Part shown: positions 978-33,020 of the stretch, in pieces | Layout: every line of letters starts with the position of its first letter | How positions within the stretch are numbered: position 1 is the stretch's first letter | Assembly: GCA_024690485.1 (NCBI GenBank) | Contig: JAILPB010000029.1 | Span: 1-37,816, forward strand | Length of the DNA: 37,816 nucleotides | Source: Butyrivibrio sp. | Lineage (GTDB): Bacteria; Bacillota; Clostridia; Lachnospirales; Lachnospiraceae | Direction: 5' to 3' | The notes under the pieces: generated by a model | Told to the model about the DNA's origin: nothing | Databases searched by the model: none | What the model saw: only the letters and a program-made list of their open reading frames with translations | Translations under genes and position numbers: made by a program

Positions 978-993
978 GTTTTTTTCTTCAGGA

Positions 994-1656: not shown

Positions 1657-1663
1657 ACAATAA

Positions 1664-2431: not shown

Positions 2432-2461
2432 AATCGAATTCTCCTTATCTGTAATCACTAA

Positions 2462-4834: not shown

Positions 4835-4988
4835 GCTTGTGTCCTCTCTTTCTTTATCGATCGTACACAATATAGCAAGGAAATTATTAAACAATCCTTA
4901 AATGGAAATTCGCAGTAAATGCGGGTTTCTGTATGAACGTTCAAGAAGTCATACTCCATAAGTATAATACAAATGCCTGTTTTTATGC

Positions 4989-7477: not shown

Positions 7478-7513
7478 AAAATCGGTACTGCAATCGCTTG
7501 CAATACCGATTTT
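7478..7513. terminator. Bidirectional rho-independent terminator between the small ORF (+) and nagB (-)
   Basis: AAAATCGGTA-ctgcaa-TCGC-ttgcaa-TACCGATTTT: 10-bp outer stem plus 5-bp inner stem, flanked by A/T runs, in a convergent gap. Confidence 0.85.
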
Positions 7514-7540: not shown

Positions 7541-8278
7541 TCAGATAAGATCCTTTATCTTGGAAAATGCAGCCTCATCTCCAACTATTGTAAAGTCAGG
7601 ATGCATCTGCAAAATAGACGCGGGAACCTCCGGTGTTACGGGGCCAAACAAAGCTGCTTTTACGATATCTGCCTTGTTTTCACCGTTTACAACCATGAGA
7701 ACTTTCCTTGCCTGCATGATTGATTTAATGCCCATTGTATAGGCCTGCTTTGGCACTTCGCCCTCACTTCCAAAGAATCTGGTGTTGGACTTAATTGTGC
7801 TCTCTGTGAGATCAACGCAATGTGTGCGAAGTTCGAAGGCTTCTCCGGGCTCATTGAAACCGATATGACCATCTGTTCCGATTCCAAGGAGCTGCAGGTC
7901 AATTCCTCCTGCTTTTCTGATAATTTCTTCATACTCCCTGCAGGCTTCATCGCTGTCAGGATTGGCTCCGTCAGGCACATGAATGTTCTCCTCTGGCACA
8001 TTTACATAGTTAAAGAAATTATCATGCATAAAATACCAGTAGCTCTGCTCGTGATCTCTCTTTAATCCTCTGTACTCATCAAGGTTGATCGTTGTTACTT
8101 CCGAAAAATCAATATCTCCCTTATTGTACCAGTCAATAAGCTGCTTGTAGGTTCCAACAGGAGTTCCTCCCGTAGCAAGTCCAAGAACACAACCGGGCTT
8201 CATAATGACCTGTGCGGAAATAATATTTGCGGCCTTTCTTGACATATCATTGTAGTCTTTTGCACTGACTATCTTCAT
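7541..8278 (-). CDS. nagB: Glucosamine-6-phosphate deaminase
   Basis: LGLATGGTPVGTYKQLI, TINLDEYRGL, LLGIGTDGHIGFNEPG, AYTMGIKSIMQARKVLMVVNGENKADIVKAALFGPVTPEVPASILQMHPDFTIV. Confidence 0.96.
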   Translation of the reverse strand: MKIVSAKDYNDMSRKAANIISAQVIMKPGCVLGLATGGTPVGTYKQLIDWYNKGDIDFSEVTTINLDEYRGLKRDHEQSYWYFMHDNFFNYVNVPEENIHVPDGANPDSDEACREYEEIIRKAGGIDLQLLGIGTDGHIGFNEPGEAFELRTHCVDLTESTIKSNTRFFGSEGEVPKQAYTMGIKSIMQARKVLMVVNGENKADIVKAALFGPVTPEVPASILQMHPDFTIVGDEAAFSKIKDLI

Positions 8279-8481
8279 TTTCTTATCCTCCAGAATTTGT
8301 ATTCATTCTGTGACTTTCCGGTCTTTCGCTGCAGAATGTCAACTATTCCTATCTGATATCCACTTGCCTAAAATAAAAGTTCCCCTCCTTTTATCTGGCA
8401 AATATCCGGATAATTAGTGAGCCCGCTCATACTCACATCACATATTGTACTCGTAATTTCGTCTACTATCCAGTGATAGTT

Positions 8482-9795
8482 TTAACACATTCCGTAATAA
8501 TCAAGAACGTAAAGAGCAAACAGTGAGTTGGACCATGCAAACCAGTCTCTTGTGTACTTCTTTGGATCATCCTTATGGAAGCCCTCGTGCATATAGAAAG
8601 TATCTGCATCTGTGCTTACAAGCATATCCAGAAGTTCTTTCCTCTCCTTATCATCAGCACTTGTAAGTCCCTGCATTGAAAGGGCAATATGCCAGATGTA
8701 ATTATCAGGAGTATGGGGTGAACCGATACCCTTTGCGGCTTCTCCGACGTAGTAATACGGATTGTTCTGACTAAGGACATCCGCTCTTGTTCTTAAGTAA
8801 ACAGTATCCTTTTTATCAATTGATGTGATCCATGGAATAGATAAAAGACTTGGCACATTGGCATCGTCCATCCTGTTTGTGTGTCCCATGGCATCTGTCT
8901 CGTAGACATATATCTTTTCGCCGGCTTCATTGGTTATGAAAGCATGCTCGCTTAACCCCTTTTCCACTGCATCCCTTATTATGTCTGCCTTATTTGCCAT
9001 CTCCTGCTCACCTATATGAGCAGCGATTTTCTTAATATATGTAAGGACATCTACCGCAAAGAGATTTGCAGGAATGAGGTATCCATACTTGCAGGCATCA
9101 TCACTTGGTCTAAAGCCTGACCAGATAAGGCCGCATCGGGCAACCTCGGCACCTTTTCCGTTATTTATAAGGGTATCTGAAGGTGGGCAGTTATCTCTTT
9201 CAAAGTAGTAGGTTGAATCCGCAGAATGATTCTGCTCTGTTGCCATAACCTTCAGGATGATCCTAAGGCCCTCTTTTATCTCATCATCGATTATTCCATA
9301 ATCGTCTGTGATCTCCAGATAATGATCAAGAAGTCTTACAGGGTAACATAAGGAATCAAGCTCGTACTTTCTCTCCCAGTCCCAGGGATTGTCGTCAGTT
9401 CTGTCCTTTGCCCAGCATCTGCCGTTTGCTTCAGTATTAAAAGCGTTGGCGTAAGGGTCGATATTTATCTGCTCAAACTGCTTTCTTATAACGCCGCCAA
9501 CAATATCCTTTAAGGGCTCGCAGCCTTCCTTCATCATAAAAGGAGCATAGTGGCATACCTGAGCACTTGAGTCTCTAAGCCACATAGCTTCAATATCTCC
9601 GGTAATAAGGAAAGTCTTACCATCTGTAAGGCACTGCATTGTCGTTTCTGCAGTATTTACAAAGCACTTTTTAAACATGGTAACAAGCTTACTGCTTGCA
9701 CCCTTCTCTTCAATTTCCTTTGAAAGCTCCTCTGCAAGGTTCTTTACGCAGGTAATTATCTCTTTTTCTTTTTGGTTGTCTCTTATATAGCTCAC
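8482..9795 (-). CDS. GH125 exo-alpha-mannosidase (metal-independent, DUF1237 family)
   Basis: GDIEAMWLRDSSAQVCHYAPF, DPYANAFN, WERKYELDSLCYPVRL, THTNRMDDANVPSLL-type motif and KYTRDWFAWSNSLFALYVLDYY. GTG start with GGGAGG upstream. Confidence 0.9.
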   Translation of the reverse strand: MSYIRDNQKEKEIITCVKNLAEELSKEIEEKGASSKLVTMFKKCFVNTAETTMQCLTDGKTFLITGDIEAMWLRDSSAQVCHYAPFMMKEGCEPLKDIVGGVIRKQFEQINIDPYANAFNTEANGRCWAKDRTDDNPWDWERKYELDSLCYPVRLLDHYLEITDDYGIIDDEIKEGLRIILKVMATEQNHSADSTYYFERDNCPPSDTLINNGKGAEVARCGLIWSGFRPSDDACKYGYLIPANLFAVDVLTYIKKIAAHIGEQEMANKADIIRDAVEKGLSEHAFITNEAGEKIYVYETDAMGHTNRMDDANVPSLLSIPWITSIDKKDTVYLRTRADVLSQNNPYYYVGEAAKGIGSPHTPDNYIWHIALSMQGLTSADDKERKELLDMLVSTDADTFYMHEGFHKDDPKKYTRDWFAWSNSLFALYVLDYYGMC

Positions 9796-9826
9796 CCTTA
9801 CACCTCCCTACGCATTTTTCTTATTT

Positions 9827-10822
9827 TCAAGCTTCAAAATTATTTGCTTTTGCAAACTCTATAAGTCTGTCCACTGTAGTAAATGCAAGTCCTGTAACTG
9901 TATCTGCGCAGCCATAGTAAATTGCGATTCTGCCTGTTGATGCATCTGTAAGAGCAGCGCAGGGGAATACAACGTTTGGCACGTCTCCGCATAGTTCATA
10001 GAGTTCTCTTGGAGCAAGGATATAATACTTTGATCTATACTTAACCTTCCAGGGCTCGTCCTTATCAAGGATTGCACAGCCCATGCGATATACAAAACCG
10101 TTACAGGTGTTTATTACGCCGTGATAGATAAGAAGCCATCCCTCATCAGTCTCGATAGGTGAAGGTCCGGGGCCGATCTTGGTTGACTGCCATGCGGATT
10201 CATCTCCTTTTATTGTTCCCATAACATATCTGTGGTGTCCCCAGTACTCAAGATCAGGGCTCTGGCTGTAGAAAATATCTCCAAAAGGAGTGTGCCCTGT
10301 ATCAGAAGGTCGGCTAAGCATCGCATACTTTCCGTTTATTTTTCTTGGGAAAAGCACGCCGTTTCTGTTATAAGGAAGGAATGCATTTTCCAGCTGTACA
10401 AAGGTCTTAAAATCATAGGTATATGCAATTCCGATTGTGGGGCCGTGGTAGCCGTTGCACCATGTAATATAGTATCTGTCCTCGATGAATACGCATCTTG
10501 GATCGTATCTGTATTCTCTTTTTGCAATCTCTCCATCTTCGCAGACAAACTGAATAGGCTCGTGATTTATCTCCCAGTGAATGCCGTCCTTACTAAAACC
10601 TGCAAAGATATCCATGCTGATTGAAAGTGAATCACATCTGAAAACACCTGCATATCCATCCCCAAAGGGAACCGCAGCACTGTTAAAAATACTGTTAGAT
10701 GTAGGGATCTCATATCTTTCGATTATGGGATTTTCAGAATATCTCCATACAGGCCCCTTCTCTCCCTCAGGGCAATCCTGCCAGGGAATGTTCTTCAACT
10801 CTTTTCCTATGATCTTACTCAT
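9827..10822 (-). CDS. GH130 beta-mannoside phosphorylase (candidate for Man-beta-1,4-GlcNAc phosphorolysis)
   Basis: [103 protein letters not shown] 10822 preceded by GGAGG. Confidence 0.88.
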
Positions 10823-10863
10823 AAACAACAACCTCCAATTATATAAAGTCTTTTTGTTTTTCT

Positions 10864-12252
10864 TTAATTTTTGCTCTCCCCAAAAGAGCCTTCCCCTTCA
10901 TTTGTGAAAGATCCAATAAAGGCTTTCACTTTATGTAGAAACATTTCTCCAAATCCTGCTTCCGCCTTAGGAAGCTTTGCGCCCTCTCCCGCTGCAAAGA
11001 TATAGTCAAGAATAAGGGGCTGCGGATAATGTGTATTTTCCATATTTTCAGCGCTACCATCCATGGCAACTGTTAGTGACAGTGTGTTAATTCCTTCCTT
11101 TAGATAAAAGTAATAGGCATCTTTTTCATCATTTGCAAAAAGGCTTGCCTGAAAGCCACTGCCATAGCTAAATTTCAAATTACCTGCTTCCTTAAAAGGA
11201 ACCTTTCCATCTATCTTTAATTCTCTTATGCAATAAGAGTCCTTGTTTTCATTTTGTAAAAATCTTGCTCCGATCCTGTAAAGTCCCCTCTTAGGAGCAT
11301 GTATACGCCAGGTAATTCCCATCCCCGGATCCTGCCAGCTATCACCGCCTATGGTGTTTAGAACCACATTACTTGGGTGATAGGGAATTGTAAGGGGCGA
11401 CGTTCTGTCATTCATGGCTACAATTTCAGCACTTGTTGTGCTATATACATTTTCAGCCTGAACTACGATAAGTCCGTCATTTGAAAGCGACTCTTCGGAA
11501 ATTTTTGATTCATCTGCATGGGAAGCTAAATATTCTTCGTAACTTAATAGCCCGTTTGAGCCTGTAATACTTACAACTTCTATTGCCATGGATGCTTCAA
11601 CAGATTCAAAAGTAATGGTGTTATCGCCCTTTTCAAAGTAAAAAAGGAATGGACCGGTAACTTTCTTTTCTGCTGAGTCAATGCTTTTTATCTGGGTTCC
11701 GCCTTTTGGTATCTGGGGCGGAGCTTTATAATCTGTATCAGTCTTATTTAGGAAGTCCTTATTTTCAGGCTCCCACTGTCTCTCAAAAACAATTCCACAG
11801 GCCTCGTTAAAAGGCACCTCTCCGTTTATGTAGAGATTTCTTTTTACATCTTTATCACTGTCAGAAAGCGGCATGTAGGTCACATCTATGGTGTAATAAC
11901 CTGTCTTTTGTATGTTAAATAAGTAGCTGACTTTTCCCTCATCTCCGGTAATAAGTGTGTTAAATTCAAGTTCAGATTTTGCAGGAAAAGTTGAATCTAA
12001 GTACTCCGTTCCTGTGCGGCTTATAGACTCTCCTAAGGTATCAGCAGTAATATCATGTTCTGCAAGATACTCCGCATAAGTAATACCTGGCGAAGGCTTA
12101 CAGTAATAGCCACCCTTATCATCGACTGCCTCTTTGTCTGATATTTTTGCAAAAGAAGTCAAGGCAGCTACGCCCTGCAAAGAATTACCGAAAATCCCTG
12201 CAAGGATAGCTGATACCACTATAAGAATTTGTCCACTTTTCTTCGTCAGCAT
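10864..12252 (-). CDS. Secreted or membrane-anchored protein with two carbohydrate-binding-like beta-sandwich modules; resembles the N-terminal half of large Firmicute solute-binding proteins
   Basis: N-terminal hydrophobic segment [30 protein letters not shown]; two modules opening with [11 protein letters not shown] and [12 protein letters not shown] and carrying [14 protein letters not shown] / [14 protein letters not shown]. Start at ATG 12252 after GGAG. Confidence 0.7.
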
Positions 12253-12312
12253 AATAGGCTCCACGTTTTGTATTATGTAGCTCCCTGTCTGTTGTTACTA
12301 ACAAATATGTTG

Positions 12313-14205
12313 TCACTCAAATAGACTGTCTGTATTCTTCTCTCTCAAAATATCCGCTGCCCTGCAGAAGATATTGGAAATGCGGTATAATTCGCTCTCT
12401 TTAGAGGTTATCCTCCAAACCTGCTTGTAGTGATATAACCACTCTTCAAGTTCTGTGGCGGTATTAGTATTTTCTTTTGGCGTATCACCTGCGAAAATCT
12501 TTTGTCCCATCTGATACAATGCCTTGCACATGAGCTTTTGTCCCTCTGCAAAGAGGACGAGCCTTGTTATCAGTTCTCTTCCTTCTGTGCCTACACCTGC
12601 TAAAAGTGGCAGAAGCTCTGCTGTTTTCTCGTCTATCTTTTTATTATTTTCAAAAGGATCCTTAACCGTAAGCCTGTCGTAAAACTCCTTTGCAGCATCC
12701 CTTGCGGGCTTTTTTTGCATAAGCTCTATGAACTGAACAAACTGCTCCCAGTTGCTTGCTTCAAGCATTGCAAGTTCTCGCATAGAACATACGATGCTCT
12801 CTGTATCATCCCCGTAGTACAGACGGGATATCTGCCTGTTTATTTCATCCTCATCCTTGACTCCGGACCAGGAAAAAGCTGCTCCGTAAATGAGTCCCGG
12901 TACTGAAAACAGCGGATCCTGAAGGTGTCCGTAGTCACCCCAGTCGGTATTTAAAAATCCTTCAGCCTTGTATTTCAAAGCGTAACTGCACATGACACTG
13001 ATGTTTTTATATGCCATCTCAAGGTGATTTATCATATGTCTCCAGCCGTGAACTCCGGGGCAGAGATACTGTCTTACAGGAACCTCTGCAAGTTTCCTTG
13101 TGTTATCTTCTTTCTCGCAGTCGCTGTACCCCCAGTTAAGGCATATGACATCCTTTGGAAGTTCCCCCACATATTCAGGAAAGCCCACAATTATGTCTCC
13201 CCAGAACATGGGCTTTTTGCCCTTTAAAATGCAGTAATGCATTATCTTATTAATAAAATCAACGTAGATTCTGGCTATTCCGACTTCATCTGCAAGGGCT
13301 TTGCTCTTACCCTTTCCAAGGTCGAAGGTCTCATCTGCGCAGATATTTACGTAGTCAGATCTAAAGAGAGGCAAAACCTCATCAAGCATCTTTTTAACAA
13401 ACTCTATGGACTTCTCATTTGTCACATCCAGAGTGTGATGCTGCATCCTCTGATCAAAGGAGAACTTATCGGCTCCGGGATTATCTAATTCGCAAAGCTC
13501 CTCATAGGTCTTGGTCCTAAGAACCTTATAGAGGTGTCCGAAGGTCGAAAATGAAGGAATAAGCTCTATTCCAAGGCTAAAGCAGTACTCATCAAGTTCT
13601 AAAATGTCCTCTGCTGTAAGAGGAGTGTCATCCCTGTAGACCTCGCTAAAACCTTCAAAGGCAAAGGTGTGCTCAACATAGAGCTGAAGCTGATTAAGTT
13701 TAAAGTAGCTGCAAATATCAGCAAGTTTTTTATAAGAAGAAAGCTTTTGAACCCTGCCCCTTGTGGCATCGTGATAAAAGCCTCTGTTTGGAATAAGTGG
13801 TTCATCCTCTATGATGCAGGCAGGAATAAGGCCTCCGCTTAGTGAAATGATCTGCCTAAGTGTCTGAATCCCGTAGAGTATTCCCCTGTTTGTGGAAGCA
13901 CAGATTTCTACAGCTTTATCAGATACTGTGAGGATGTAGGCTTCTTCACCGCTTAGGGTGCTGTCCTTTTTTATGAAAAAACTTCCGCAACTTTCTCCGG
14001 AGCCGGTTTTAGTAATAGAAAGCCTAATCCCAAGCTTTTCTTCTATATCATTTTTCAAAATCCGGGCAAAGCCAAAATCTCTGCTGTCACAGGTATCTGA
14101 CAAAACGATCCTGGTCTTAAAGTCAATTCTAAATTCCCCTTTGCCTATCTTTACGCTTTTAGGCGCAGGAATTAAGTATTCAAGTGCATTTGCAGTTTTT
14201 TTCAT
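12313..14205 (-). CDS. GH20 beta-N-acetylhexosaminidase (no signal peptide)
   Basis: LIPAPKSVKIGKGEFRID, GILYGIQTLRQI, IEDEPLIPNRGFYHDATRGRVQK, LNQLQLYVEHTFAFEG, YVNICADETFDLGKGKS (catalytic D-E pair). Confidence 0.9.
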   Translation of the reverse strand: MKKTANALEYLIPAPKSVKIGKGEFRIDFKTRIVLSDTCDSRDFGFARILKNDIEEKLGIRLSITKTGSGESCGSFFIKKDSTLSGEEAYILTVSDKAVEICASTNRGILYGIQTLRQIISLSGGLIPACIIEDEPLIPNRGFYHDATRGRVQKLSSYKKLADICSYFKLNQLQLYVEHTFAFEGFSEVYRDDTPLTAEDILELDEYCFSLGIELIPSFSTFGHLYKVLRTKTYEELCELDNPGADKFSFDQRMQHHTLDVTNEKSIEFVKKMLDEVLPLFRSDYVNICADETFDLGKGKSKALADEVGIARIYVDFINKIMHYCILKGKKPMFWGDIIVGFPEYVGELPKDVICLNWGYSDCEKEDNTRKLAEVPVRQYLCPGVHGWRHMINHLEMAYKNISVMCSYALKYKAEGFLNTDWGDYGHLQDPLFSVPGLIYGAAFSWSGVKDEDEINRQISRLYYGDDTESIVCSMRELAMLEASNWEQFVQFIELMQKKPARDAAKEFYDRLTVKDPFENNKKIDEKTAELLPLLAGVGTEGRELITRLVLFAEGQKLMCKALYQMGQKIFAGDTPKENTNTATELEEWLYHYKQVWRITSKESELYRISNIFCRAADILREKNTDSLFE

Positions 14206-14251
14206 AACACACCTACCCTTTCATTGAGACATAAGTCTCTATGCAGACCTT

Positions 14252-16549
14252 TTATTCCTCAGGAAGAATTGTAGTTTTCGCTTTTAACTCTCCCTGATCC
14301 ATAACAAGAATTTCGTAGTCTTTAGCCTTTGTGCTAAGTTTCATTTCGTAGTTATAAAAAGCAAAGTCCTTAAGTTTAAGTTCTAAGCTTATTTCTTTTT
14401 CTTCTCCTGCTTTAAGGAAGCATCTGTCAAAGTTCTTTAGTTCAAGGACTCTTGCAGTAACTCCGCCTCCATGTCTTTTTAAGTAAATCTGAGGGACTGC
14501 TACAGCCTCCATATCTCCCGGGTTCTTAACACTCATTTTTATAGCGATGACAGAGTTTTGTAGTCTTCCGCTATCCTCTGAATTTTGCGCATTTTCAAAG
14601 ATTTCGGGTGTTAAGGCGCCTGTCTTTTCAAAAGAAACATTTTTATATTCAATGTCTGAATACATAAGGCCCATGCCGAATGTATAGTCGGTACCCTGCT
14701 GCAGGTTACAATACTTCATTCCATCGTAGGAGGACTTAAAATTATAGTAGCAGGGAATCTGTCCCTCTTCCTTTGGAAGGGACGCAGGCATCCTTCCTGT
14801 GGGGCTTATGACGCCCTTAATTATTTCGGCGATAGCAGGTCCCCCGAAAGGCCCCGGATAAAAGGCATACAATAATCCGTCACTTGCAGCTGCAATATCA
14901 GTTATGACATAAGGTCTTCCAGCTACGCATACAGTAATCACAGGGGTTTTGCCCTTTATGTAGCTGTTAATAAAAGCAGCTTCATCTTTTCCAACTTCAA
15001 GGGATGATCTGTCCATTCCCTCTCCGCACTCCATAACGCCGCTTGTTGTCAGGGCTGCTCCGTTTTTATCAAACTCTGCTCCGCCATATCTTGATGAGCT
15101 TCCGCCTGTAACAAAGAGAAGAAAATCATATCCTTTTATTTCATCAGCAAGAGCCTGCTTATCCTCATAGTCATCAAAAGAGAAATACTTAACCTTAGAT
15201 CCGGCATATTCTTCTCTTATTCCGGATAGAACAGAAACCATTTTTGATTCATCTCTTGGAGGAGTGTAGTCTCCCATAAGTGCATATCCGGAATCCGCAT
15301 TTTCTCCCATAACAGCTATTTTCTTAGCTTCCCTGACCGGCAGGATGTTATTCTGATTTTTTAATAGAACAACTGATTCCTCAGCCATCTTAAGGGAGAG
15401 TTTATCTATACCGTAATCTGCTTCTCTTCCCATATTCTTTGTCATATAGGGTTTCTCAAAAAGTCCCCTCTCAAATTTAAGTAAGAGAACCGGGAAAACA
15501 GCATCGTCTATATCTTTTTCAGTAATTATTCCGCGACTTACTGCTTCCTCAAGTTTTGTAAAGCCATAGTCCCAAAGGCTTATGTTTACGCCACTCTTTA
15601 AGGCAAGTGCTCCGCTTTCTGTGTTGCCTGAGGTTACTTTATCAAGGCTGTCTATAGCAAAACCGTCAGCCATGACAACGCCCTTAAAGCCCATCTCGTC
15701 TCGAAGTATATCACTTAAAAGATGGGGATTTCCGTGACAGTAAACTCCGTCAATCTCGTTGTAGGCTGCCATTATGCCGTCGCATCCTGCATCAACTGCG
15801 GCTTTCGTAGGAGGAAGATGAATTTCTCTAAGCTCCCTCTCTCCGATTCTTGCAGCGCTGGCATTTACTCCGCCTGTGCCTTCGCCCTGAGCACAAAAGT
15901 GCTTGGCAACAACTCCTGTTCCGCTTTTTTTCATGCCCTTTGTAGCTGCACGGGCCATCCTTGCAGAAAGGACAGGATCCTCAGAGTAGCACTCTTCGCA
16001 CCTTCCCCATCTTGGATCTCTCATAACATCAAGCATGGACATCAGTGCAAAATCAACATGTCCGTCAGAAAGCTGCTTTCCACAGGCCTCATAAGCATCT
16101 TCCAAAAGCTTTTCATCAAAGCTTGCAGCTGCCGCAGCATTAACCGGAAGAATTCCGCCTCCAAGAGCCTGATGTCCGTGGGGGCATTCAGTTGACATAA
16201 GTGCCGGAATACCTAACCTTGAATGCTCTATAACATATCTTTGAACTTCGTTATAGGCTTCCATGCTCTTTTTGGGGGTTATGCCATTTTCTTCTGTTTT
16301 ACCGGACCATGGATCAGCTCTGTATAGTCCGTACAAAGTTCCAAGTCCTCCCCATTTTTCCACTTCTTCTTTAAACTCATCCGTAAGGGAAAAATCCGGA
16401 CTGTAATCATATATGGAAAAACCGTAGAGACGCTGGTTTAACTGCCCTACCTTCTCTCTTAATGTCATTTTGGAAAGAAGGTCTGATGCTCTTTCCTTCG
16501 GGCTTTTTGCAGCATCTTTATAAATCTCGTAATTATCTCCGGCATTCAT
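14252..16549 (-). CDS. GH3 beta-glycosidase (glucosidase/xylosidase-type architecture, no signal peptide)
   Basis: VVMADGFAIDSL (nucleophile region), GTGVVAKHFCAQGEGTGG, GIMAAYNEIDGVYCHGNPHLLSDILRDEMGFKG, C-terminal-domain GEGMDRSSLEV and Fn3-like tail. Confidence 0.92.
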   Translation of the reverse strand: MNAGDNYEIYKDAAKSPKERASDLLSKMTLREKVGQLNQRLYGFSIYDYSPDFSLTDEFKEEVEKWGGLGTLYGLYRADPWSGKTEENGITPKKSMEAYNEVQRYVIEHSRLGIPALMSTECPHGHQALGGGILPVNAAAAASFDEKLLEDAYEACGKQLSDGHVDFALMSMLDVMRDPRWGRCEECYSEDPVLSARMARAATKGMKKSGTGVVAKHFCAQGEGTGGVNASAARIGERELREIHLPPTKAAVDAGCDGIMAAYNEIDGVYCHGNPHLLSDILRDEMGFKGVVMADGFAIDSLDKVTSGNTESGALALKSGVNISLWDYGFTKLEEAVSRGIITEKDIDDAVFPVLLLKFERGLFEKPYMTKNMGREADYGIDKLSLKMAEESVVLLKNQNNILPVREAKKIAVMGENADSGYALMGDYTPPRDESKMVSVLSGIREEYAGSKVKYFSFDDYEDKQALADEIKGYDFLLFVTGGSSSRYGGAEFDKNGAALTTSGVMECGEGMDRSSLEVGKDEAAFINSYIKGKTPVITVCVAGRPYVITDIAAASDGLLYAFYPGPFGGPAIAEIIKGVISPTGRMPASLPKEEGQIPCYYNFKSSYDGMKYCNLQQGTDYTFGMGLMYSDIEYKNVSFEKTGALTPEIFENAQNSEDSGRLQNSVIAIKMSVKNPGDMEAVAVPQIYLKRHGGGVTARVLELKNFDRCFLKAGEEKEISLELKLKDFAFYNYEMKLSTKAKDYEILVMDQGELKAKTTILPEE

Positions 16550-16681
16550 TTAAGGATAACCCCCAAAACTTTTTTCTGTCTGAACATGAACAAAATAACG
16601 TTTTATATAATTCTATTTTATAATCCCATCCATATTTTTACATCTGATATTTTTGGGATAATTTGGATATTTATGGCGCTT

Positions 16682-19600
16682 TTAAAATCTAACTCTGTAA
16701 GTCTTGATCTCGTAAGGCTTGATCTCAAATGAAACCTTGTTTCCTGCTGCTGTCACATCGCTTCCGGAAACCTTCTCTTCAATGAGATTGGTCTCTTCAA
16801 CAGACTTAACAGCATTTGCAAATGAAAGTTCTGCCTTTGTTCTGGAATTTTCAACTTCGTAAAGTCTTACGATAATTCCATCACCATCTTCAGCCTTCTT
16901 GATCGTCTCAAGAACAACGTTCTTTTTATCAACTGATGCAAAGGAGAACTCGGCACCCTTCTCGCCTGACTTTACAGCCTTAAGAGGAACGTTAACATTG
17001 AAGCTTTCCTTGTAAACATCAGCGTCCTTCCAGGTTCCCTGGTGAGGAAGAAGTGAATATGTAAAGCTGTGTACCTCAAGGTCAGCAGTCTCGTTAGGCT
17101 CTGTTCCTGCCTTAAAAAGTGTGATTGAAAGGTTTCCGTTAATTGCGGAATAGCCATACTTACAGTCATTCATCAGGCTGACACCGTAGTTACCCTCTGA
17201 CATATCAGCAAACTTATGAGCACAGCTCTCGAATCTAGCCTCATCCCAGCTTGTATTCTGATGGAACTTACGGGTAAGGTTACCAAACTGAATATCGTAA
17301 GTTGCTTCATCAGTATGTACATCCACAGGGAAGTGTACCTTACAAAGGTGCTGACTAAGCTTCCAGTCAACAACTGTTTCAAAGTCAATTCTTGCAGAGT
17401 CTGCGTAGAAGTGAATGAGCTGCGTAAACTCGTTATCAAGCATTCTCTTTGTAACCTTAAGAGTTGCTCTAACAGGTCCTTTTTCTACCCAGGTAAGCTT
17501 TGCATCATCTGCTACGGGCCATGATTTTTCCTGATAGAATACATCTACATTCCAGTTATCAAAGCTTCTCGGCTTATCCTCGTATACACGAAGCTCGTTT
17601 CCGATTTTTCCTTCCTTAAGAACTTCTCTTTCTTCTCTCTTATCATAGATAGAAGTAAACTGTCCAAGGTTATCAATCGCTACCTTATAGAAAGGAGTTT
17701 CGATTCCCTCTGCTGTGATATTAAGTGCGTTCTCACTGCCTTTAGCATCGCAGGTTTCAAGTCCCTTGAATCCCTTTGAAGGAATGTTCTTAACGAATGC
17801 AACTACGCCATTTTCTGTCTTCTGAGCAGGATATACTTCTTTTCCGTCAGTAAGAGCTGCTGCTTCAATGCCCTCGATTTCAACGATGTCGTCTCTGTTA
17901 AAGCCAAGGGTATTAAATACAGTTACGCCCTCTCCCTTAGGTGCAACAACAGATAGTCTCTCATCAAGAAGCTTTCCGCTCTTTTCAAAGATCTCTTCGT
18001 ATTCAACCTTGGTAACATCATAAACTTCCTTAATGGATGATCCGGGAAGGATGTCATGGAACTGGTTTCTAAGGATTGTCTCCCACATTTCATCAAGCTC
18101 TTCCTTAGGATAAGCAAGTGCAGCCTCAGCAAGAACTGAGAGAAGCTCAAGCTCCATCATGCGGTACTCACTCTTTCTGTTAGCTTTCTTATTTCTAGCC
18201 ATAGAGGTGTAGGTTCCTCTGTGGAACTCAAAGTAAAGCTCACCAACCCATGAAGGAAGTCTCTTGGAATCCTTAACCTTTTCATATAATTCATCAAAAT
18301 ATGTCTTAGAGAATTCCTGACGAACCTTAGGAATACCCTTAATTCCTTTTTCCATGCGGACAGAGGTCTCAAGCATATCTCTTGTGGGGCCGCCGCCTCC
18401 ATCACCGTAGCCGAAGGATACAAGGATGTCGTTGTTAATATCCTTCTGCTGATATCTGGTCCATCCACCCATGATTGAATCAGGGTTAAGCATTCCGTTA
18501 TATGTTGTAAAGAAATCACTTGTGGGCTGGCCAACACCAAGGGTTGTAATGAGGTGAGTAAATATCTTACTTCCGTCGATACCTTCCCACATAAAGGTGT
18601 CCATAGGTACCTTGTTGTACTCATTCCATGCAAGCTTTGTTGTCATGAAGTAGTTGATACCACTCTTTTTCATGATCTGTGGAAGAGCTGCGCTGTATCC
18701 AAATACATCAGGAAGCCAGAGCTCTTCATTATCTTTTCCAAACTCATCCTTGAAGAACTTCTTACCAACAAGGAACTGTCTAACCAGTGACTCACCGCTT
18801 GTAAGGTTACAATCTGCTTCAACCCACATGCCGCCTTCTGGCTCCCATCTGCCTTCTGCAACTCTGTCCTTGATCCTCTGGTATAGATCTGTGTGGCGCT
18901 CTTTTACAAACTTGTAGAGCTGGGGCTGGCTGGACATGAACTTATAATTTGGATACTCATCCATAAGCTTAAGAACAGTAGCAAAGCTTCTGCAAGACTT
19001 CTGTCTAACCTGGGCAACAGTCCAGAGCCAAGCCACATCAATGTGAGTATGACCGATACAGGTTGCGATCACATCATCAAAGCCTGACATCTCAGGGTTC
19101 TCATAGAGATTAACTCTGATGTACTCTCTTGCAGCTCTTACTGAAGCATAGAAGGCCTCGCTCTTAACATCTCTAAGGTCGATGAGGTTAATTGTCTCGT
19201 TGATGATATCAAGAATTCTTCTCGCTGTTCTCTCATCTTCATCCATTCTGTTAAGTCCCCAGAGAGGAACCTGAATGTCGTAGTAGAGATCCTTTATTTC
19301 ATCATCTCTTACTTCGATATCTGCAAGAAGCTTGAACTCGTTGTGGAGAGTACCTGTATATGACTGCATATCAACGCGGATAGTTTCTCCGGCTTTTGCC
19401 TTCTCAAAAAGAAGGATCTCTCTGTGGTTGATATCAAGTCCCTGAACAGGGCTTCCGTTTACAAAGACGAGGAACTGAGGATTTCTTCCATCATCCCACT
19501 CTTCAAGCTGAGTTCTCACATGGAGCCAAACCTTTTTGCCCTCCATTGAATCAGGTATTGTAATATCACTTCTAAACCAGTAGTGAGTATCCTTTCCATA

Positions 19601-19777
19601 CCATCTCATTGTCTCAGAATCAAACTCCTCCCACTTTTCAGGTGCCTTGTCAGCATCCTCGGGAGTAATGTAACAGCCGTCTTTTTTCTGCCACTTCTGT
19701 ATGCGTACCTGTTGTCTTGTGATCTCTTTTTTGAGCTGCATACAAATAACATTTGCTCTGTCCTTTAAAAACTTCAT
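16682..19777 (-). CDS. GH38 alpha-mannosidase
   Basis: CIGHTHIDVAWLWTVAQVRQKSCRSFATVLKLM (metal site), WEPEGGMWVEADCNLTSGESLVRQFLVGKKFF, ELWLPDVFGYSAALPQIMKKSG, FHDILPGSSIKEVYD. Start ATG 19777 (MKFLKDRANVI) overlaps the upstream stop. Confidence 0.95.
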   Translation of the reverse strand: MKFLKDRANVICMQLKKEITRQQVRIQKWQKKDGCYITPEDADKAPEKWEEFDSETMRWYGKDTHYWFRSDITIPDSMEGKKVWLHVRTQLEEWDDGRNPQFLVFVNGSPVQGLDINHREILLFEKAKAGETIRVDMQSYTGTLHNEFKLLADIEVRDDEIKDLYYDIQVPLWGLNRMDEDERTARRILDIINETINLIDLRDVKSEAFYASVRAAREYIRVNLYENPEMSGFDDVIATCIGHTHIDVAWLWTVAQVRQKSCRSFATVLKLMDEYPNYKFMSSQPQLYKFVKERHTDLYQRIKDRVAEGRWEPEGGMWVEADCNLTSGESLVRQFLVGKKFFKDEFGKDNEELWLPDVFGYSAALPQIMKKSGINYFMTTKLAWNEYNKVPMDTFMWEGIDGSKIFTHLITTLGVGQPTSDFFTTYNGMLNPDSIMGGWTRYQQKDINNDILVSFGYGDGGGGPTRDMLETSVRMEKGIKGIPKVRQEFSKTYFDELYEKVKDSKRLPSWVGELYFEFHRGTYTSMARNKKANRKSEYRMMELELLSVLAEAALAYPKEELDEMWETILRNQFHDILPGSSIKEVYDVTKVEYEEIFEKSGKLLDERLSVVAPKGEGVTVFNTLGFNRDDIVEIEGIEAAALTDGKEVYPAQKTENGVVAFVKNIPSKGFKGLETCDAKGSENALNITAEGIETPFYKVAIDNLGQFTSIYDKREEREVLKEGKIGNELRVYEDKPRSFDNWNVDVFYQEKSWPVADDAKLTWVEKGPVRATLKVTKRMLDNEFTQLIHFYADSARIDFETVVDWKLSQHLCKVHFPVDVHTDEATYDIQFGNLTRKFHQNTSWDEARFESCAHKFADMSEGNYGVSLMNDCKYGYSAINGNLSITLFKAGTEPNETADLEVHSFTYSLLPHQGTWKDADVYKESFNVNVPLKAVKSGEKGAEFSFASVDKKNVVLETIKKAEDGDGIIVRLYEVENSRTKAELSFANAVKSVEETNLIEEKVSGSDVTAAGNKVSFEIKPYEIKTYRVRF

Positions 19778-19782
19778 TTCAC

Positions 19783-21897
19783 TTACCCTTTCTGAATCCA
19801 TGCGGCACTATGTGCCATTATTATATTATCAGGCATTCCTTCTTTAGCTCCGAAGGTGGCATCTGCATAATGCATTCCCTCTGGCAAAACATAAGGAACA
19901 GACCTGTGATTCACAACTATGTATCCGCTATCAAAAACGCCTACCTCTATACCTTTTTCGCATATAGGAGATTCCGGCTTTATGGCTTTATGGATTATAT
20001 CCTCAAATATCTTCGACTTTGAAAGTGCAAAGGGATACATCTCTTTATTTCCCTGATCATAGGGAACATGTGGAATGTTCTTGGAAGCATAGGAAGCTCC
20101 AAGCATAACTCCCATGGAGTAAACCTTTCCGCTGCCTATTTTCCTGCAGGTTATGCAGTTTTTGCCATCCACATATTTTGCAATCACTTCGTCGCCTTCA
20201 TAGCTGCAGAACTTATTTCCCTGAGCTATGATGACTTTTTCGCCCTCTTTATAAAAAGGCTTCTTCTCAGTATTTTCGCCGTGTATATCAAACACTGACT
20301 CTGAAAGCTGATCCATCGGACCGTGGACAAGAATTCCTCCATCCATAACCCATTTGCGGATAAGGCTTTCAGATTTTTCATGAGGAAGTGCCTTGTAGCA
20401 ATCGTTTGCAGGAACTATCAAAATCTTATAATCATCAAGGCAGCCCTTCTCAATTTCATGGGTGCTGATGACATCTGTCTGAGTTCCAAGGTCGCAGCAC
20501 ATCTTGTAATATCCAAGAAGGTCAAGTCTCCTTGTGGTATTTCCACTTACCTCGAAGGGCTCAAAATCTGACATCTCAAGAGGGAAAAGAATTGCTGCTT
20601 CTTTTGTTCTCTTTCCCGCTCTCTTAGGAACAACTCTTGTAAACCAGTTATTTCCCCTAGTCAGAGATTCCATGAAAGTATCATCCATTCTGTTTACAAC
20701 ACCGCCGTCATCAAGTCCGTTTATTCCATAGGCGTTATATCCGTCAGCGCCGCATACTGCCATGGTTCCTACTATTTCTTCGGGTGTTATGAGATTAAAA
20801 ATATCTCTGTAAATATATCTGCCAAAATAGGTCCCACCTATCATGGTCCTTTTCTCATTCATAACTCTCATCATGCTGTGCTGAAGAGATGTCACGTAAG
20901 CATCCGGATGTCCGTCCGGCAAAACAGGAACCGTTATAAAATGCGTGCAGTCAAGGTGATCTGACAGTCCGTACATATCAATTCCGCGAACCGATGTATC
21001 CCACAGGTCACTATAGTCATTATCATCATCCACCTGGGTTCTGCCATCTATGTTCATGAGGTATCCCCACTGGGATAAGTCAGGGCAAAGGAAAAGATCG
21101 TCTACCTTATGTAATCTGTCTTTCATGCTTTCAAAATAATTTGAAAGCTCGTATATCTTCCACAAAAGATTATCTCTTCTTACCATGAACCTGGGAGTTA
21201 AGTTTTCCACATCACTCTCTGTGAAAACTCCCTCGTATTTAAGCTCATAGTGATATTCTTCGGGGGATAATGTTTCAAAATCTTTAGCTTTTATTCCGTA
21301 AGCTTTATTTAGCTTTTCAATATCGCCGTCATATATTTTTTTCAAGAAAGCTCTGTATCTGTTTCTGCCCTCTTCGTCGAAGCTTGGAGCCACAACCGGG
21401 TCCCACATGCTGCATACAGGCTTTACCAATTTTCCATCGTTATCACAGACACAATAATTATCACTGTACAATTCCATCATCTGTTTTACGTGCTCAGTCA
21501 TTGTGTCCCTGGCCTTATCTGACCAGTATTTATACCACCTTGCAGGTGTTCCGTCATAATAGCTTATACCCTCTCCAAGTACCGGAGGGCTGAGTCTTAT
21601 ATGGGGATAGAGGTTATCTCCATTTAAATATAGAAGAAGAAAGTTAAAAGTAAGACCGTTCTTCTTTGCTGATTTCATCATGAATTCCTGCATCTTTACA
21701 TAGATGCTGGAATCTGCGCCTGCTACTCTTTCTCTGAAATCCTCAGAGTCTTTTGTATCAAGCATCACACTGTTAAATCCAAGCTTTCTGATAAGTCCCA
21801 TTGTTTCATCCACAAACTTCTCATCATCGTAGCCCGGGCAATAAAAGTTTCCGAATATTATGTTTATGTATGGTTCTTTTGTAGCAATATCGATCAT
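19783..21897 (-). CDS. Putative clan GH-A (GH42/GH164-like) protein with beta-galactosidase trimerisation-like domain; exact family unassigned
   Basis: SFDEEGRNRYRAFLKKIYDGDIEKLNKAYGI resembles the GH42-like 'aFreWLkekYgtieaLNkawGt' block; YKILIVPANDCYKALPHEKSESLIRKWVMDGGILVHGP resembles the GH42 trimerisation domain. Start ATG 21897 after AAAGGA. Confidence 0.55.
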   Translation of the reverse strand: MIDIATKEPYINIIFGNFYCPGYDDEKFVDETMGLIRKLGFNSVMLDTKDSEDFRERVAGADSSIYVKMQEFMMKSAKKNGLTFNFLLLYLNGDNLYPHIRLSPPVLGEGISYYDGTPARWYKYWSDKARDTMTEHVKQMMELYSDNYCVCDNDGKLVKPVCSMWDPVVAPSFDEEGRNRYRAFLKKIYDGDIEKLNKAYGIKAKDFETLSPEEYHYELKYEGVFTESDVENLTPRFMVRRDNLLWKIYELSNYFESMKDRLHKVDDLFLCPDLSQWGYLMNIDGRTQVDDDNDYSDLWDTSVRGIDMYGLSDHLDCTHFITVPVLPDGHPDAYVTSLQHSMMRVMNEKRTMIGGTYFGRYIYRDIFNLITPEEIVGTMAVCGADGYNAYGINGLDDGGVVNRMDDTFMESLTRGNNWFTRVVPKRAGKRTKEAAILFPLEMSDFEPFEVSGNTTRRLDLLGYYKMCCDLGTQTDVISTHEIEKGCLDDYKILIVPANDCYKALPHEKSESLIRKWVMDGGILVHGPMDQLSESVFDIHGENTEKKPFYKEGEKVIIAQGNKFCSYEGDEVIAKYVDGKNCITCRKIGSGKVYSMGVMLGASYASKNIPHVPYDQGNKEMYPFALSKSKIFEDIIHKAIKPESPICEKGIEVGVFDSGYIVVNHRSVPYVLPEGMHYADATFGAKEGMPDNIIMAHSAAWIQKG

Positions 21898-21920
21898 AAT
21901 AATATCCTTTAAATGAAACA

Positions 21921-21949
21921 CAGGACCGTTACAAGCCGTAACGGTCCTG
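21921..21949 (-). terminator. Intercistronic stem-loop after the substrate-binding protein gene (partial terminator or mRNA-stabilising hairpin)
   Basis: CAGGACCGTTAC-AAGCC-GTAACGGTCCTG: perfect 12-bp stem, followed on the minus strand by only a weak T run (TGTTTCATTT). Confidence 0.75.
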
Positions 21950-21961
21950 CAATAAAACTAA

Positions 21962-23509
21962 TTATTTATTTGCAATAAAAGCATCAACCTGTGCCTGTGC
22001 TGCATCTACAACATCCTGCCATCCTGCTGCTTCAAGCTCTTCCTTCATCTCCGGAACAGCTGTCTCAGGATCAAGGACACCTGTTGTGATCTCGCTCTTA
22101 TATCTTGACCAGATCTCTGTGCAGTTAGCAAGCTGATCAGATACTTCTGAGTAATCAAATGTGAATCCAAGAAGAACTGAAGGTGTAGCCTTCTCGTTGA
22201 GCTCCTTAACTTCATCCCACTGATTGAACTCATCAGCTGCGTTCTGAGTTACTGTGAAGAATGTACCCTGTGTATAACCAGCCATTGTCCAGTCTTCGTT
22301 GAGCTTCTCAACCTTGCCGTCATCTGTATACTTGAAGTTAACACCCTCTTCACCATAGTAGAACATGTCTCTTACCTTAGTATCTGTGTTAACAAGATCA
22401 AGGAACTGCAAGCACTTCTCAGGATACTGTGTGTTAGCTGAAATCATGTTGAGTGATCCTCTAACAGTATCGTTTGAAAGAATTGTCTCACCGATCTGAG
22501 AAACAACAACATCCTTACCCATCTGAGGGCCCCAAGATGTGATTGCTGCTGAAGGCCATCCCTGAGCTACTCTCCACATGTTGTATACGCGGCCTTCTGA
22601 AAGTGTTGAAGCATCTGAGTTGATGATGCCATCCTGGTACCACTCGTGAATTGTCTTAAGCTCTGACATGATGTCGTCCTGCTCAAGAGTAAGGCAAACC
22701 TTAGCATCCTTGTCGTCATATCTTACGCCAAGAATCTGGAGACCTGCGCCAAGCTGATCATACTTATCAAAGATGTAGTAAAGACCATCGTTCTTTACAT
22801 ATACAGGGTAGTCACCCTTCTCTTCCTTGAGCTGCTTGAAGATGTCTGTCTTAGCGTCAAGGCTCTTAGCCATCTCATCGATGTCAATGCTGTACTCGTC
22901 TACAAGCTCAGCATCCCAGATGTCATAGTTTGAAAGTGAGCTGTCCTTGTATGTAGGTACACCATATACTTTTCCGTCTACAGTTACTGCATCCCAGTAT
23001 TCCTCAGGCATAAGTGCTGTAAGGCCGGGCATGTTGTCTTTTACAAGGTCTGTGATGTCATAGTATGCACCAAGTGCGATGTCAGATGTGAAGTTTCCGC
23101 CGTTACCAAATATGATGTCGTAAGGCTCGTTTGTGCTGATGATGATGTTTCTTCTGTTATCCCAGTCACCCCAAGAGATAACTTCCATCTCGATGTTTAC
23201 ACCGATCTTCTCAGCGAGGTACTCGTTAAGAGTAGCTGCCCATGAATCGTAGTTGTCAGGCATACCTGAACCGATTGTAACCCACTTAAGTGTAACTACG
23301 TCACCGGAAGCCTCTGTTGTTGTTTCCTCAGTAGTTTCAGCAGCCTCTTCTGTGCTCTCTGTAGCCTCTGCTGCTTCTTCTGAACTTGCTTCAGCTGTGG
23401 TATCTGTGCTCTCCTTTGTCTCAGATCCACTTCCTGATCCGCCGCAGCCTGCAACCATTGAAAGCCCCATTGTGCAGGTAAGCAGCATTGCTAATACCTT
23501 CTTTTTCAT
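21962..23509 (-). CDS. ABC transporter substrate-binding lipoprotein (CUT1-type oligosaccharide binder)
   Basis: Lipobox MVAGCGG after MKKKVLAMLLTCTMGLS; acidic S/T/E/A linker; VTLKWVTIGSGMPDNYDSWAATLNEYLAEKIGVNIEMEVISWGDW..; next to two permeases. Confidence 0.93.
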   Translation of the reverse strand: MKKKVLAMLLTCTMGLSMVAGCGGSGSGSETKESTDTTAEASSEEAAEATESTEEAAETTEETTTEASGDVVTLKWVTIGSGMPDNYDSWAATLNEYLAEKIGVNIEMEVISWGDWDNRRNIIISTNEPYDIIFGNGGNFTSDIALGAYYDITDLVKDNMPGLTALMPEEYWDAVTVDGKVYGVPTYKDSSLSNYDIWDAELVDEYSIDIDEMAKSLDAKTDIFKQLKEEKGDYPVYVKNDGLYYIFDKYDQLGAGLQILGVRYDDKDAKVCLTLEQDDIMSELKTIHEWYQDGIINSDASTLSEGRVYNMWRVAQGWPSAAITSWGPQMGKDVVVSQIGETILSNDTVRGSLNMISANTQYPEKCLQFLDLVNTDTKVRDMFYYGEEGVNFKYTDDGKVEKLNEDWTMAGYTQGTFFTVTQNAADEFNQWDEVKELNEKATPSVLLGFTFDYSEVSDQLANCTEIWSRYKSEITTGVLDPETAVPEMKEELEAAGWQDVVDAAQAQVDAFIANK

Positions 23510-23585
23510 TTCTTACCCTCCTATGAAAAATGAATTTATATATCTAATCCCCTGTAAGGAAAAAGATTCATATGAAGTTCTGCTC

Positions 23586-24497
23586 TCAGCCTTTAACTGA
23601 TCCAATCGTGAGTCCGGAAATAAAGTATTTCTGGAAGAACGGATAAACACATGCGATCGGAACAATAATCACTATTGCTATAGCCATTCGTACACTCTCT
23701 GTCGGCATTGTTGATTTGTACTGCTGCATTGATAATCCACCATAGGGATTATTTGCAAGGTACTCTATGTTGTTCTGAATGTTGTTAAGCATTGACTGAA
23801 GTGACTGCAGGTTTTTATCTGAAATATACAGTGAAGCCTGGAACCAGTCATTCCAATAACCAAATGCCGCAAAAAGTCCGATTGTTGCAAGGATTGGCTT
23901 AGAGATAGGTAAAATAATCTGGAAGAAAATTCTAAGCTGACTTGCGCCGTCCATCTTGGCGGATTCTACGATTGAATCCGGTATGGTGGATTTAAAGAAT
24001 GTCTTACAGATAACAACATTGAAGGATGAAACCGCCAGTGGCAGGATCAATGCCCATATTGTATCTCTAAGGTGCAGGATGTTTGAGTTAACAACGTATC
24101 CTGCAAGCATACCGCCGTTAAATATCATTGGTATAAATACAAGCCATGTGTAAAAATCCTTAAGTGCATATGTAGGTCTTGAAAGTACATATCCCATTGT
24201 TGTTGTCAAAAGAACTGAGATGATGATACCAAGTGCTGTTACAACAACTGAGATGAACAGTGCATGGAGGATTGTTCCTCTCTCATTCCACAGGAACTGA
24301 TAAGCTGCATTTGACATCTCTGTGGGAATTATCTGATATCCGTATTTCTGTATGCTTGTCTCACTTGATATTGAAATCGAAAAAACAAATACCGCAGGAA
24401 GCACACATAAAAGCGAAAGTATTATGAATACTATATTAAAGAAGATATCCGTTCCTCTTTTTATCTGGTTAATTGGTTTAGCCTTTTGTTTACTCAT
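23586..24497 (-). CDS. Carbohydrate ABC transporter permease (MalG/YtcP-like)
   Basis: EAA-type loop PDSIVESAKMDGASQLRIFFQIILPISKPILATIGLFAAFGYWNDWFQASLYI; six TM-like segments. Confidence 0.93.
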   Translation of the reverse strand: MSKQKAKPINQIKRGTDIFFNIVFIILSLLCVLPAVFVFSISISSETSIQKYGYQIIPTEMSNAAYQFLWNERGTILHALFISVVVTALGIIISVLLTTTMGYVLSRPTYALKDFYTWLVFIPMIFNGGMLAGYVVNSNILHLRDTIWALILPLAVSSFNVVICKTFFKSTIPDSIVESAKMDGASQLRIFFQIILPISKPILATIGLFAAFGYWNDWFQASLYISDKNLQSLQSMLNNIQNNIEYLANNPYGGLSMQQYKSTMPTESVRMAIAIVIIVPIACVYPFFQKYFISGLTIGSVKG

Positions 24498-24524
24498 TTC
24501 ATTACCTTCTGTTTTCTAGCTAAG

Positions 24525-25493
24525 TTAAATAATTGCGCTGTCTTCATCAATCTTGCTTACAACCCAGTTAGCAATAAGGATTGTTACGCAGCAGCAAACT
24601 GACTGGAAGAATGATGCCGCAGCTGTCTTTCCGATTGGTGCACTGGACTGAATAGCTTTGTAAATGTATGTATCAAAGGTTGATACTGTAGTATAAAGTG
24701 ACTGAGGTATTCCTCCTGTTACCTGATAGAAAAGACCGAAGTCTGAGTAGAAGATCTTTCCTGTATCAAGGATAAGCATCATTACAAGTACTGTCTTAAT
24801 GGAAGGCATTGTAATGTATTTTGCCTGTTGCCACTTTGTCGCTCCATCCATAACTGCCGCCTCATATAAGGAAGGATCAATACCGGTTATGGCAGCAAGG
24901 TAAATTACCATTCCGTATCCCATGCCCTTCCAGATCTTCATGAATGTAAGGAAGAACGGCCAGTACTGCGGTGACTGATACCACATCACTTTTTCGCCCC
25001 CAAGGCTTGTGATGAAAGCGTTCAGATAGCCTTTGTCAGGAGTAAGAATCGCGTAGACGATGTAGCTTACTACTACCCATGACATGAAGTAAGGAAAGAA
25101 CATCATGGTCTGATATGTCTTGGATAAGAACTTACTTCTTAAGTTGCTAAGCATAAGTGCGAACCCTACCGCTACCGCTGCTCCAAGGATGATGAACAAA
25201 ATATTGTAAAGTATTGTGTTCCTAAGAAGCATTACAAAGGCGTTGGATTTAAAGAAGTATGTGAAGTTATTCCAGCCAACCCATTTACTATGGAACAAAC
25301 TGTACAGAAATCCATGTCCACCGCTCAGCTTATATTCCTTAAAAGCTATTACGATACCAAACATCGGAAAATATGCAAAAAGCACAAACCAGATTACTGT
25401 TGGTAAAGATATAAGGGTAAGATCCAAGTCATCCCTTGTAAATTTCCATTTACGTTTTTTCTGACTCGTCTTAACTTTTTTCATGATTAACAC
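24525..25493 (-). CDS. Carbohydrate ABC transporter permease (LplB/UgpA-like)
   Basis: PSLYEAAVMDGATKWQQAKYITMPSIKTVLVMMLILDTGKIFYSDFGLFYQVT. Start either GTG 25493 or ATG 25484. Confidence 0.93.
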   Translation of the reverse strand: MLIMKKVKTSQKKRKWKFTRDDLDLTLISLPTVIWFVLFAYFPMFGIVIAFKEYKLSGGHGFLYSLFHSKWVGWNNFTYFFKSNAFVMLLRNTILYNILFIILGAAVAVGFALMLSNLRSKFLSKTYQTMMFFPYFMSWVVVSYIVYAILTPDKGYLNAFITSLGGEKVMWYQSPQYWPFFLTFMKIWKGMGYGMVIYLAAITGIDPSLYEAAVMDGATKWQQAKYITMPSIKTVLVMMLILDTGKIFYSDFGLFYQVTGGIPQSLYTTVSTFDTYIYKAIQSSAPIGKTAAASFFQSVCCCVTILIANWVVSKIDEDSAII

Positions 25494-25546: not shown

Positions 25547-25575
25547 ATTTTAATATTTGTTTAACCCGGTGTCAA
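25547..25575 (-). promoter_or_regulatory. Sigma-A-type promoter of the glycan operon
   Basis: Minus strand TTGACA - 17 nt - TAAAAT. Confidence 0.75.
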
Positions 25576-25812
25576 CAGGATTTATTAACATTTTCTCTTG
25601 TGCATAAAATCAAAGAGCAAGATTTGTGCACTTTTATCGTACTTCTTTCTTGATTTTAACTTTTTTTACATTTTTATCATTTATATGTTTACATTATGTT
25701 AAATATGTGCTATTTTCAAGATAACAATTTTAACATGAAATATAATCTAGAAATAAGATTTTTGTACTTTAAATTATCAACAAGTTTAATCGTAAATCAG
25801 GGGAGAGAACTT

Positions 25813-29805: not shown

Positions 29806-29818
29806 TTCACTACCTTTC

Positions 29819-29839
29819 TTACCGATTCCGAATCGGTAA
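29819..29839. promoter_or_regulatory. Perfect dyad symmetry immediately upstream of ppdK
   Basis: TTACCGATTC-C-GAATCGGTAA, 10-bp arms with a 1-nt centre, ~14 nt upstream of the ATG. Confidence 0.55.
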
Positions 29840-29889
29840 AACCCTTTCCATTAATGCTACTATTTATAATTAACTATGATACATAGTAA

Positions 29890-32991: not shown

Positions 32992-33020
32992 ATTTTCACC
33001 TTTTTCCCAAATGTAATCCC

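Follow-up and report, generated by a model that had tools for sequence, protein, structure and literature searches.

A probable N-glycan import and degradation operon in Butyrivibrio that includes a GH42-related protein

Described N-glycan loci and the Butyrivibrio operon

The closest described counterparts of the locus analyzed here, an eleven-gene operon on a 37,816-nt contig of Butyrivibrio sp. (JAILPB010000029.1, assembly GCA_024690485.1; this whole stretch is referred to as the window), are two published gene sets for N-glycans. The Gram-positive polysaccharide utilization locus (gpPUL) Ros-10 of Roseburia intestinalis XB6B4, described in 2016, comprises GH3, GH38, GH85, GH125, GH130 and GH20 and was predicted to act on N-linked glycans (PMC5320581). 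The Streptococcus pneumoniae set, published in 2017, consists of CPL (GH20C, ROK, GH38, GH125, GH92, GH29), NgtS/P1/P2 and EndoD. NgtS is the pneumococcal importer of EndoD products, and the same paper already pointed to similar loci in other Firmicutes (PMC5215778).

The Butyrivibrio operon has GH3, GH38, GH125, GH130, GH20, an ABC transporter and LacI regulation in common with Ros-10. Ros-10 additionally has GH85, CE1, a major facilitator superfamily (MFS) transporter and NagC regulators, whereas the window locus has nagB, a GH42-related protein (P8) and a 466-aa protein (P4), and no GH85. None of the 80 P8 loci kept in the genome scan described below is from R. intestinalis. A likeness to the pneumococcal set, proposed in a first-pass annotation of this DNA, is borne out by an NgtS-type importer that accompanies GH38, GH125 and GH20 in both. 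In contrast to S. pneumoniae, the window genes all lie in one operon that adds GH130, NagB, an Ams1-type GH38, GH3 and P8 and is devoid of GH92, GH29, ROK and EndoD. Since both sets have been published, the locus is not new in kind. It is a Butyrivibrio variant that has P8, P4 and nagB in addition and from which GH85 is either lost or unlinked; it extends the known locus class to this genus in a form that seemingly depends on glycans released by others. The host is a gut Butyrivibrio, probably from the rumen.

It is highly probable that the operon serves the import and intracellular degradation of N-glycans under a LacI-type repressor and ends in the phosphorolysis of Man-β-1,4-GlcNAc. This reading, in outline that of the first-pass annotation, is well supported because the solute-binding protein (SBP) is an NgtS homologue, the GH130 is of the UhgbMP type, the GH38 is of the Ams1 type, the GH125 belongs to the α-1,6 clade, and relatives link a GH85 to the locus. 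From gene identities and synteny, which are observed directly, we infer substrates, step order and a role of P8 as follows. An endo-β-N-acetylglucosaminidase (ENGase) outside the cell would release N-glycan fragments that terminate in one GlcNAc, and the NgtS-like lipoprotein and two CUT1 permeases, powered by an ATPase encoded elsewhere, would import them. In the cytoplasm, GH20 would take off antennary GlcNAc and GH3 a β-linked substituent, plausibly xylose, while GH38 and GH125 would strip the α-mannoses. GH130 would phosphorolyze Man-β-1,4-GlcNAc to Man-1-P and GlcNAc, and NagB would route the amino sugar to glycolysis together with NagA and a kinase encoded outside the locus. P8 may remove or modify one further residue.

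Importer and degradative enzymes

The importer genes are:

24525..25493, minus strand: CUT1 ABC permease 1, NgtP1-like (Pfam BPD_transp_1; 67-93% identity to the permease in 25 syntenic loci)
23586..24497, minus strand: CUT1 ABC permease 2, NgtP2-like (Pfam BPD_transp_1; synteny)
21962..23509, minus strand: solute-binding lipoprotein, NgtS homologue (PDB 5SWA/5MLT/5SUO, E about 1e-46)

The SBP, which contains a DUF3502 domain (Pfam), is homologous to S. pneumoniae NgtS over its full length (E 2.6e-46 across residues 67-515). Structures of NgtS have been solved with Man1GlcNAc and Man5GlcNAc, the single reducing GlcNAc being buried. With a numbering offset of 23, deduced from how far apart the two tryptophans lie, the NgtS ligand contact Trp81 aligns with W113 and the stacking Trp386 with Y412, so that the aromatic character is kept; all 34 aligned relatives have Tyr or Trp at position 412. 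Sequence comparison thus gives good support for the SBP as an NgtS-type importer component and putative N-glycan binder.

The degradative enzymes and NagB are encoded as follows:

16682..19801, minus strand: GH38 α-mannosidase, Ams1 (cytosolic/vacuolar) type (four Pfam GH38 domains)
14252..16549, minus strand: GH3 enzyme, β-xylosidase-like (Pfam; best PDB match β-xylosidase 7ZB3, E 6e-106)
12313..14205, minus strand: GH20 β-N-acetylhexosaminidase (Pfam GH20b and GH20)
9827..10831, minus strand: candidate Man-β-1,4-GlcNAc phosphorylase, GH130_2 type (UhgbMP 4UDG, E 1.5e-157)
8482..9795, minus strand: GH125 exo-α-1,6-mannosidase (Pfam E 2e-142; CPE0426 2NVP E 5e-143)
7541..8278, minus strand: NagB glucosamine-6-phosphate deaminase (TIGR00502, 304.8 bits, cut-off 236.9)

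Pfam confirms the first-pass family names for the permeases, GH38, GH3, GH20, GH130, GH125 and the deaminase, while the proteins called 'GH-A-like' (P8) and 'CBM-like' (P4) receive no family assignment beyond a match of the former to the GH42 trimerisation domain. The best match of the GH38 is fungal Ams1 (E 3e-148, versus about 1e-18 for streptococcal GH38). The GH20 is divergent from solved members of its family. The GH125 falls in the characterized α-1,6 clade and retains the Asp that is Asn in the deposited CPE0426 variant 5M7I. The nearest relative of the GH130 is the mannosyl-N-glycan phosphorylase UhgbMP, with RaMP2 also similar. Asp104, named as the catalytic residue of UhgbMP (PMC10619541), aligns with D110 once an inferred 20-residue tag is subtracted, and the catalytic Asp is kept. 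The enzyme matches UhgbMP/BT1033-type phosphorolysis in sequence and catalytic Asp, but sits behind a Gram-positive ABC importer instead.

A second GH38, 34% identical, is found in the same genome (L013:12126-15266, G000 contig C74). It is flanked by SBP_bac_5 oligopeptide-type ABC transporter genes, has a GH13-like gene downstream, and belongs to a different mannoside system.

Genomic context in other bacteria

An alignment of P8 was scanned against about 85,000 species genomes, which yielded 80 loci, 27 of them with at least 52% identity. Of these 27, all but one (26) encode an NgtS-like SBP, and permeases are present wherever the contig extends far enough. GH130 occurs in 18 (locus L016 included after completion) and GH38 in 21, with 54-81% identity in 16 and 31-43% in five, where it lies upstream. 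A GH85 endo-N-acetylglucosaminidase is directly linked in nine loci, identified by Pfam in two. GH3 and GH20 co-occur in the Butyrivibrio-like loci. Locus L027 contains a GH2 β-mannosidase and no GH130. In several loci, ROK kinase and/or phosphomannose isomerase (PMI) genes follow. The two are fused in L031 (15207-17240, 677 aa, adjoining the GH85 of that locus), and joint ROK/PMI matches are likewise found in L038 and L053. Between GH38 and GH3, three loci carry a CBM9-like gene and a second LacI gene on the opposite strand that are absent from the window (L016:16386-17543, L018:17337-18431, L035:16370-17425).

Within the genus, P8 is found in just 4 of 79 genomes, and the locus is therefore patchy. 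Butyrivibrio sp. WCD3002 has the full gene set of the window minus P4 in the same order; P8 identity is 72% and 68% in the genomes corresponding to WCD3002 and NC2002. Among six Lachnospiraceae with SBPs of 36-70% identity whose loci were read, P8 occurs in one (70% SBP) and in none at 36-50%. In three of them with 46-50% SBP and no P8 (G051, G320, G118), the importer is adjoined by GH130 and GH38 (two genomes) or GH125 (one). Because Lachnospiraceae importer loci carry these enzymes without P8, importer, GH130 and GH38 form the core of the system, to which P8 is added as an accessory in one subset. A synteny search across Lachnospiraceae had been proposed in the first-pass annotation; in the comparison made here, synteny is conserved in over 20 further genomes, which excludes a chance grouping of genes.

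The GH42-related protein P8

The gene between SBP and GH38 encodes the really new part of the locus:

19783..21921, minus strand: P8, 712-aa protein of a GH42-related family, no signal peptide

The only Pfam match of P8 is the GH42 trimerisation domain, and a profile search mainly picks up this type of domain. Profile alignment with GH42 (hhalign, 98.8%, E 5e-17, 560 columns) indicates homology over the full length. The AlphaFold2 model, built with 60 homologues, reached a pLDDT of 93.8, and Foldseek relates it to IaSGT (GH35), GH42 and GH164 with TM scores of about 0.6-0.7 and 10-15% identity (GH164 11%). A viral fold library gave no relevant match. In the model, P8 has the TIM barrel and trimerisation-type (Rossmann) domain architecture of these three groups; it differs from them by its low identity (about 14%), a β4 carboxylate that is mostly Asp, and the lack of a β7 acid. 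Across the 60 homologues, D174 on β4 is Asp in 53 and Glu in 7, and none has D or E on strand β7 and the residues that follow (361-371), the site of Glu343 in IaSGT and of the Glu nucleophile in GH42. D55, D61, E79, D102, D182, D250, D404 and D405 are invariant, and at position 308 Gln replaces Asp in 7 of 60 aligned sequences.

P8 is thus predicted to be GH42-like in fold but is not to be filed as GH42, because β7 lacks an acid where GH42 has its nucleophile. It represents an undescribed GH42-related family. Assignment as a true GH42 galactosidase was rejected on the same catalytic positions (no β7 acid, residue 174 mostly Asp). A GH164 β-mannosidase was also rejected, as the 11% identity is by structure only, the family profile matches no GH164 PDB sequence, and the catalytic positions differ. 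An obligatory β-mannosidase role is unlikely, since GH130 usually co-occurs and GH2 replaces GH130 in L027. The first-pass annotation, which called the protein 'GH-A-like', overlooked it as the most unusual part of the locus.

The family occurs in Lachnospiraceae, other Clostridia, Spirochaetes, Verrucomicrobia, Planctomycetes and Actinobacteria, with homologues L084-L094 representing the last four groups, and is limited to a subset of N-glycan loci and to pectin-type loci elsewhere. Among 99 immediate neighbors of the distant homologues, 11 GH88-type and 9 GH43 matches suggest β-galactosides, arabinosides or similar side chains as substrates there. A β-galactosidase-like role of P8 on N-glycan antennae would fit both the N-glycan and the pectin-type contexts, though this is unproven. 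There is a sizeable chance, falling somewhat short of even, that P8 founds a new GH family with a GH42-like fold, no β7 nucleophile and hence a different mechanism, either inverting or relying on an Asp at β2, β3, β4 or β8, and that it serves a specific N-glycan residue in Lachnospiraceae and a pectin-type side chain in other bacteria. As a well-folded, widespread protein with a strictly conserved non-canonical active site and a syntenic link to N-glycan import, P8 is a bounded target for new glycosidase activity.

Missing functions and alternative explanations

Several observations weigh against the N-glycan reading. The window assembly (2.26 Mb, 72.9% complete) yielded neither a GH85 nor a GH92 nor an ENGase-like GH18, and NagA was not recovered, though it is present in relatives. 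The genome of locus L015 likewise lacks GH85, and the only GH18 in G447 (99% complete, same locus, probably the same organism as L015) is of the kind discussed below for the window genome. GH130_2 includes β-1,4-mannan phosphorylases as well as N-glycan phosphorylases. Mucin did not support growth of R. intestinalis strains, one of which carries the related locus.

The sole GH18 of the window genome proved to be a membrane-anchored protein of SH3 type and was therefore rejected as an ENGase; each of the five genomes searched has a single GH18, always of this length. GH92 is absent from the window genome and four relatives. NC2002 has a distant GH85 elsewhere in its genome, and ROK kinases are present in the window genome. 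The locus itself encodes neither an MsmX-type transporter ATPase nor NagA nor a sugar kinase. The system had been described as self-contained and cytoplasmic. The former does not hold given these gaps and the failure to find an ENGase in the genome, and the latter is at odds with a lipoprotein SBP and a secreted P4. As no glycan-releasing endoglycosidase was found, the organism likely scavenges glycans released by others, or its ENGase escapes detection.

Specialization for plant complex N-glycans is a tentative alternative. GH3 would remove core β-1,2-xylose, GH20 antennary GlcNAc and P8 antennary galactose before the mannosidases and GH130 act. The GH3 has a β-xylosidase as its nearest solved structure, a GH3 of Bacteroides massiliensis is a β-1,2-xylosidase on plant N-glycans, and both the pairing of GH3 with GH20 in Butyrivibrio-like loci and the plant-glycan enzymes GH88 and GH43 beside distant P8 homologues agree with such a role. 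However, the locus has no fucosidase, and Ros-10, which also has a GH3, was assigned to mucus N-glycans (PMC5320581). Moreover, the NgtS-type site has no room past one reducing-end GlcNAc, whereas the plant glycans of B. massiliensis are released by peptide:N-glycosidase (PNGase).

Degradation of fungal α-mannan or β-1,2-mannan is very unlikely. Yeast-mannan systems do contain GH38, GH125 and GH130, but the GH130 here is of the UhgbMP and not the β-1,2 type, the genome has no GH92 and the locus no GH76 or GH99, GH20 and NagB require GlcNAc, and the NgtS-like SBP and the GH85 linkage in relatives point elsewhere. Linear β-1,4-mannan, with GH130 as mannooligosaccharide phosphorylase in keeping with its resemblance to the β-1,4-mannooligosaccharide phosphorylase RaMP2, is hardly credible as substrate, as it leaves no role for GH38, GH125 and GH20 and the gluco/galactomannan locus of R. 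intestinalis differs (GH1, GH36, GH76, GH113, two GH130; PMC5320581).

Transcription signals, P4 and neighboring genes

The transcription signals and remaining genes are:

25696..26826, plus strand: divergent LacI-family regulator, likely local repressor (Pfam LacI and Peripla_BP_3)
25547..25575, minus strand: sigma-70-type promoter (TTGACA-17-TAAAAT, 11/12 consensus, top of 32 matches)
21919..21951, minus strand: hairpin separating the SBP gene from that for P8, probable attenuator (-23 kcal/mol, z -5.8)
10864..12264, minus strand: P4, secreted/anchored protein of 466 aa, no known domain
7478..7513, minus strand: terminator hairpin 3' of nagB (-22.2 kcal/mol, z -6.6)

As first annotated, all eleven open reading frames share one strand (minus, 25493 to 7541), behind a strong promoter and ahead of a terminator that the predicted fold supports. 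Intergenic gaps are mostly <80 bp, and there is a 19-bp overlap between the genes for P8 and GH38. TTGACA-like boxes line up across four relatives; promoter-like sites overall are rarer in the window than in shuffles. A hairpin after the SBP gene would be in the usual place for reducing enzyme expression relative to the binding protein. This second strong hairpin and a 203-bp gap or leader before nagB make more than one transcript level likely. The LacI gene is divergent from permease 1 in many syntenic loci as well. No clear common palindrome for a LacI operator was seen in the upstream alignment of relatives, and an Rfam scan of the window gave no match.

P4 has no match in Pfam, NCBIfam or PDB, which leaves its earlier label 'CBM-like' without a Pfam basis, and homologues occur in two relatives only. 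A single-sequence fold prediction (pLDDT 30) was discarded. The idea that P4 corresponds to the N-terminus of a large lipoprotein was rejected, the genes in question being GH85s.

Beyond the LacI gene, a pyruvate phosphate dikinase (PPDK)-like phosphoenolpyruvate (PEP)-utilizing enzyme and a glycerophosphodiester phosphodiesterase (GDPD) adjoin the locus (26983-30783). The same neighbors are found in L016, and a PPDK homologue (66%) follows a 40% SBP homologue in L125. They are followed by an O-acetylation-type cassette of an MBOAT acyltransferase and two proteins without Pfam family (30953-34478). At the other end of the window (3-4894), a two-component system, an ABC transporter and an FtsX permease resemble antimicrobial-peptide response modules.

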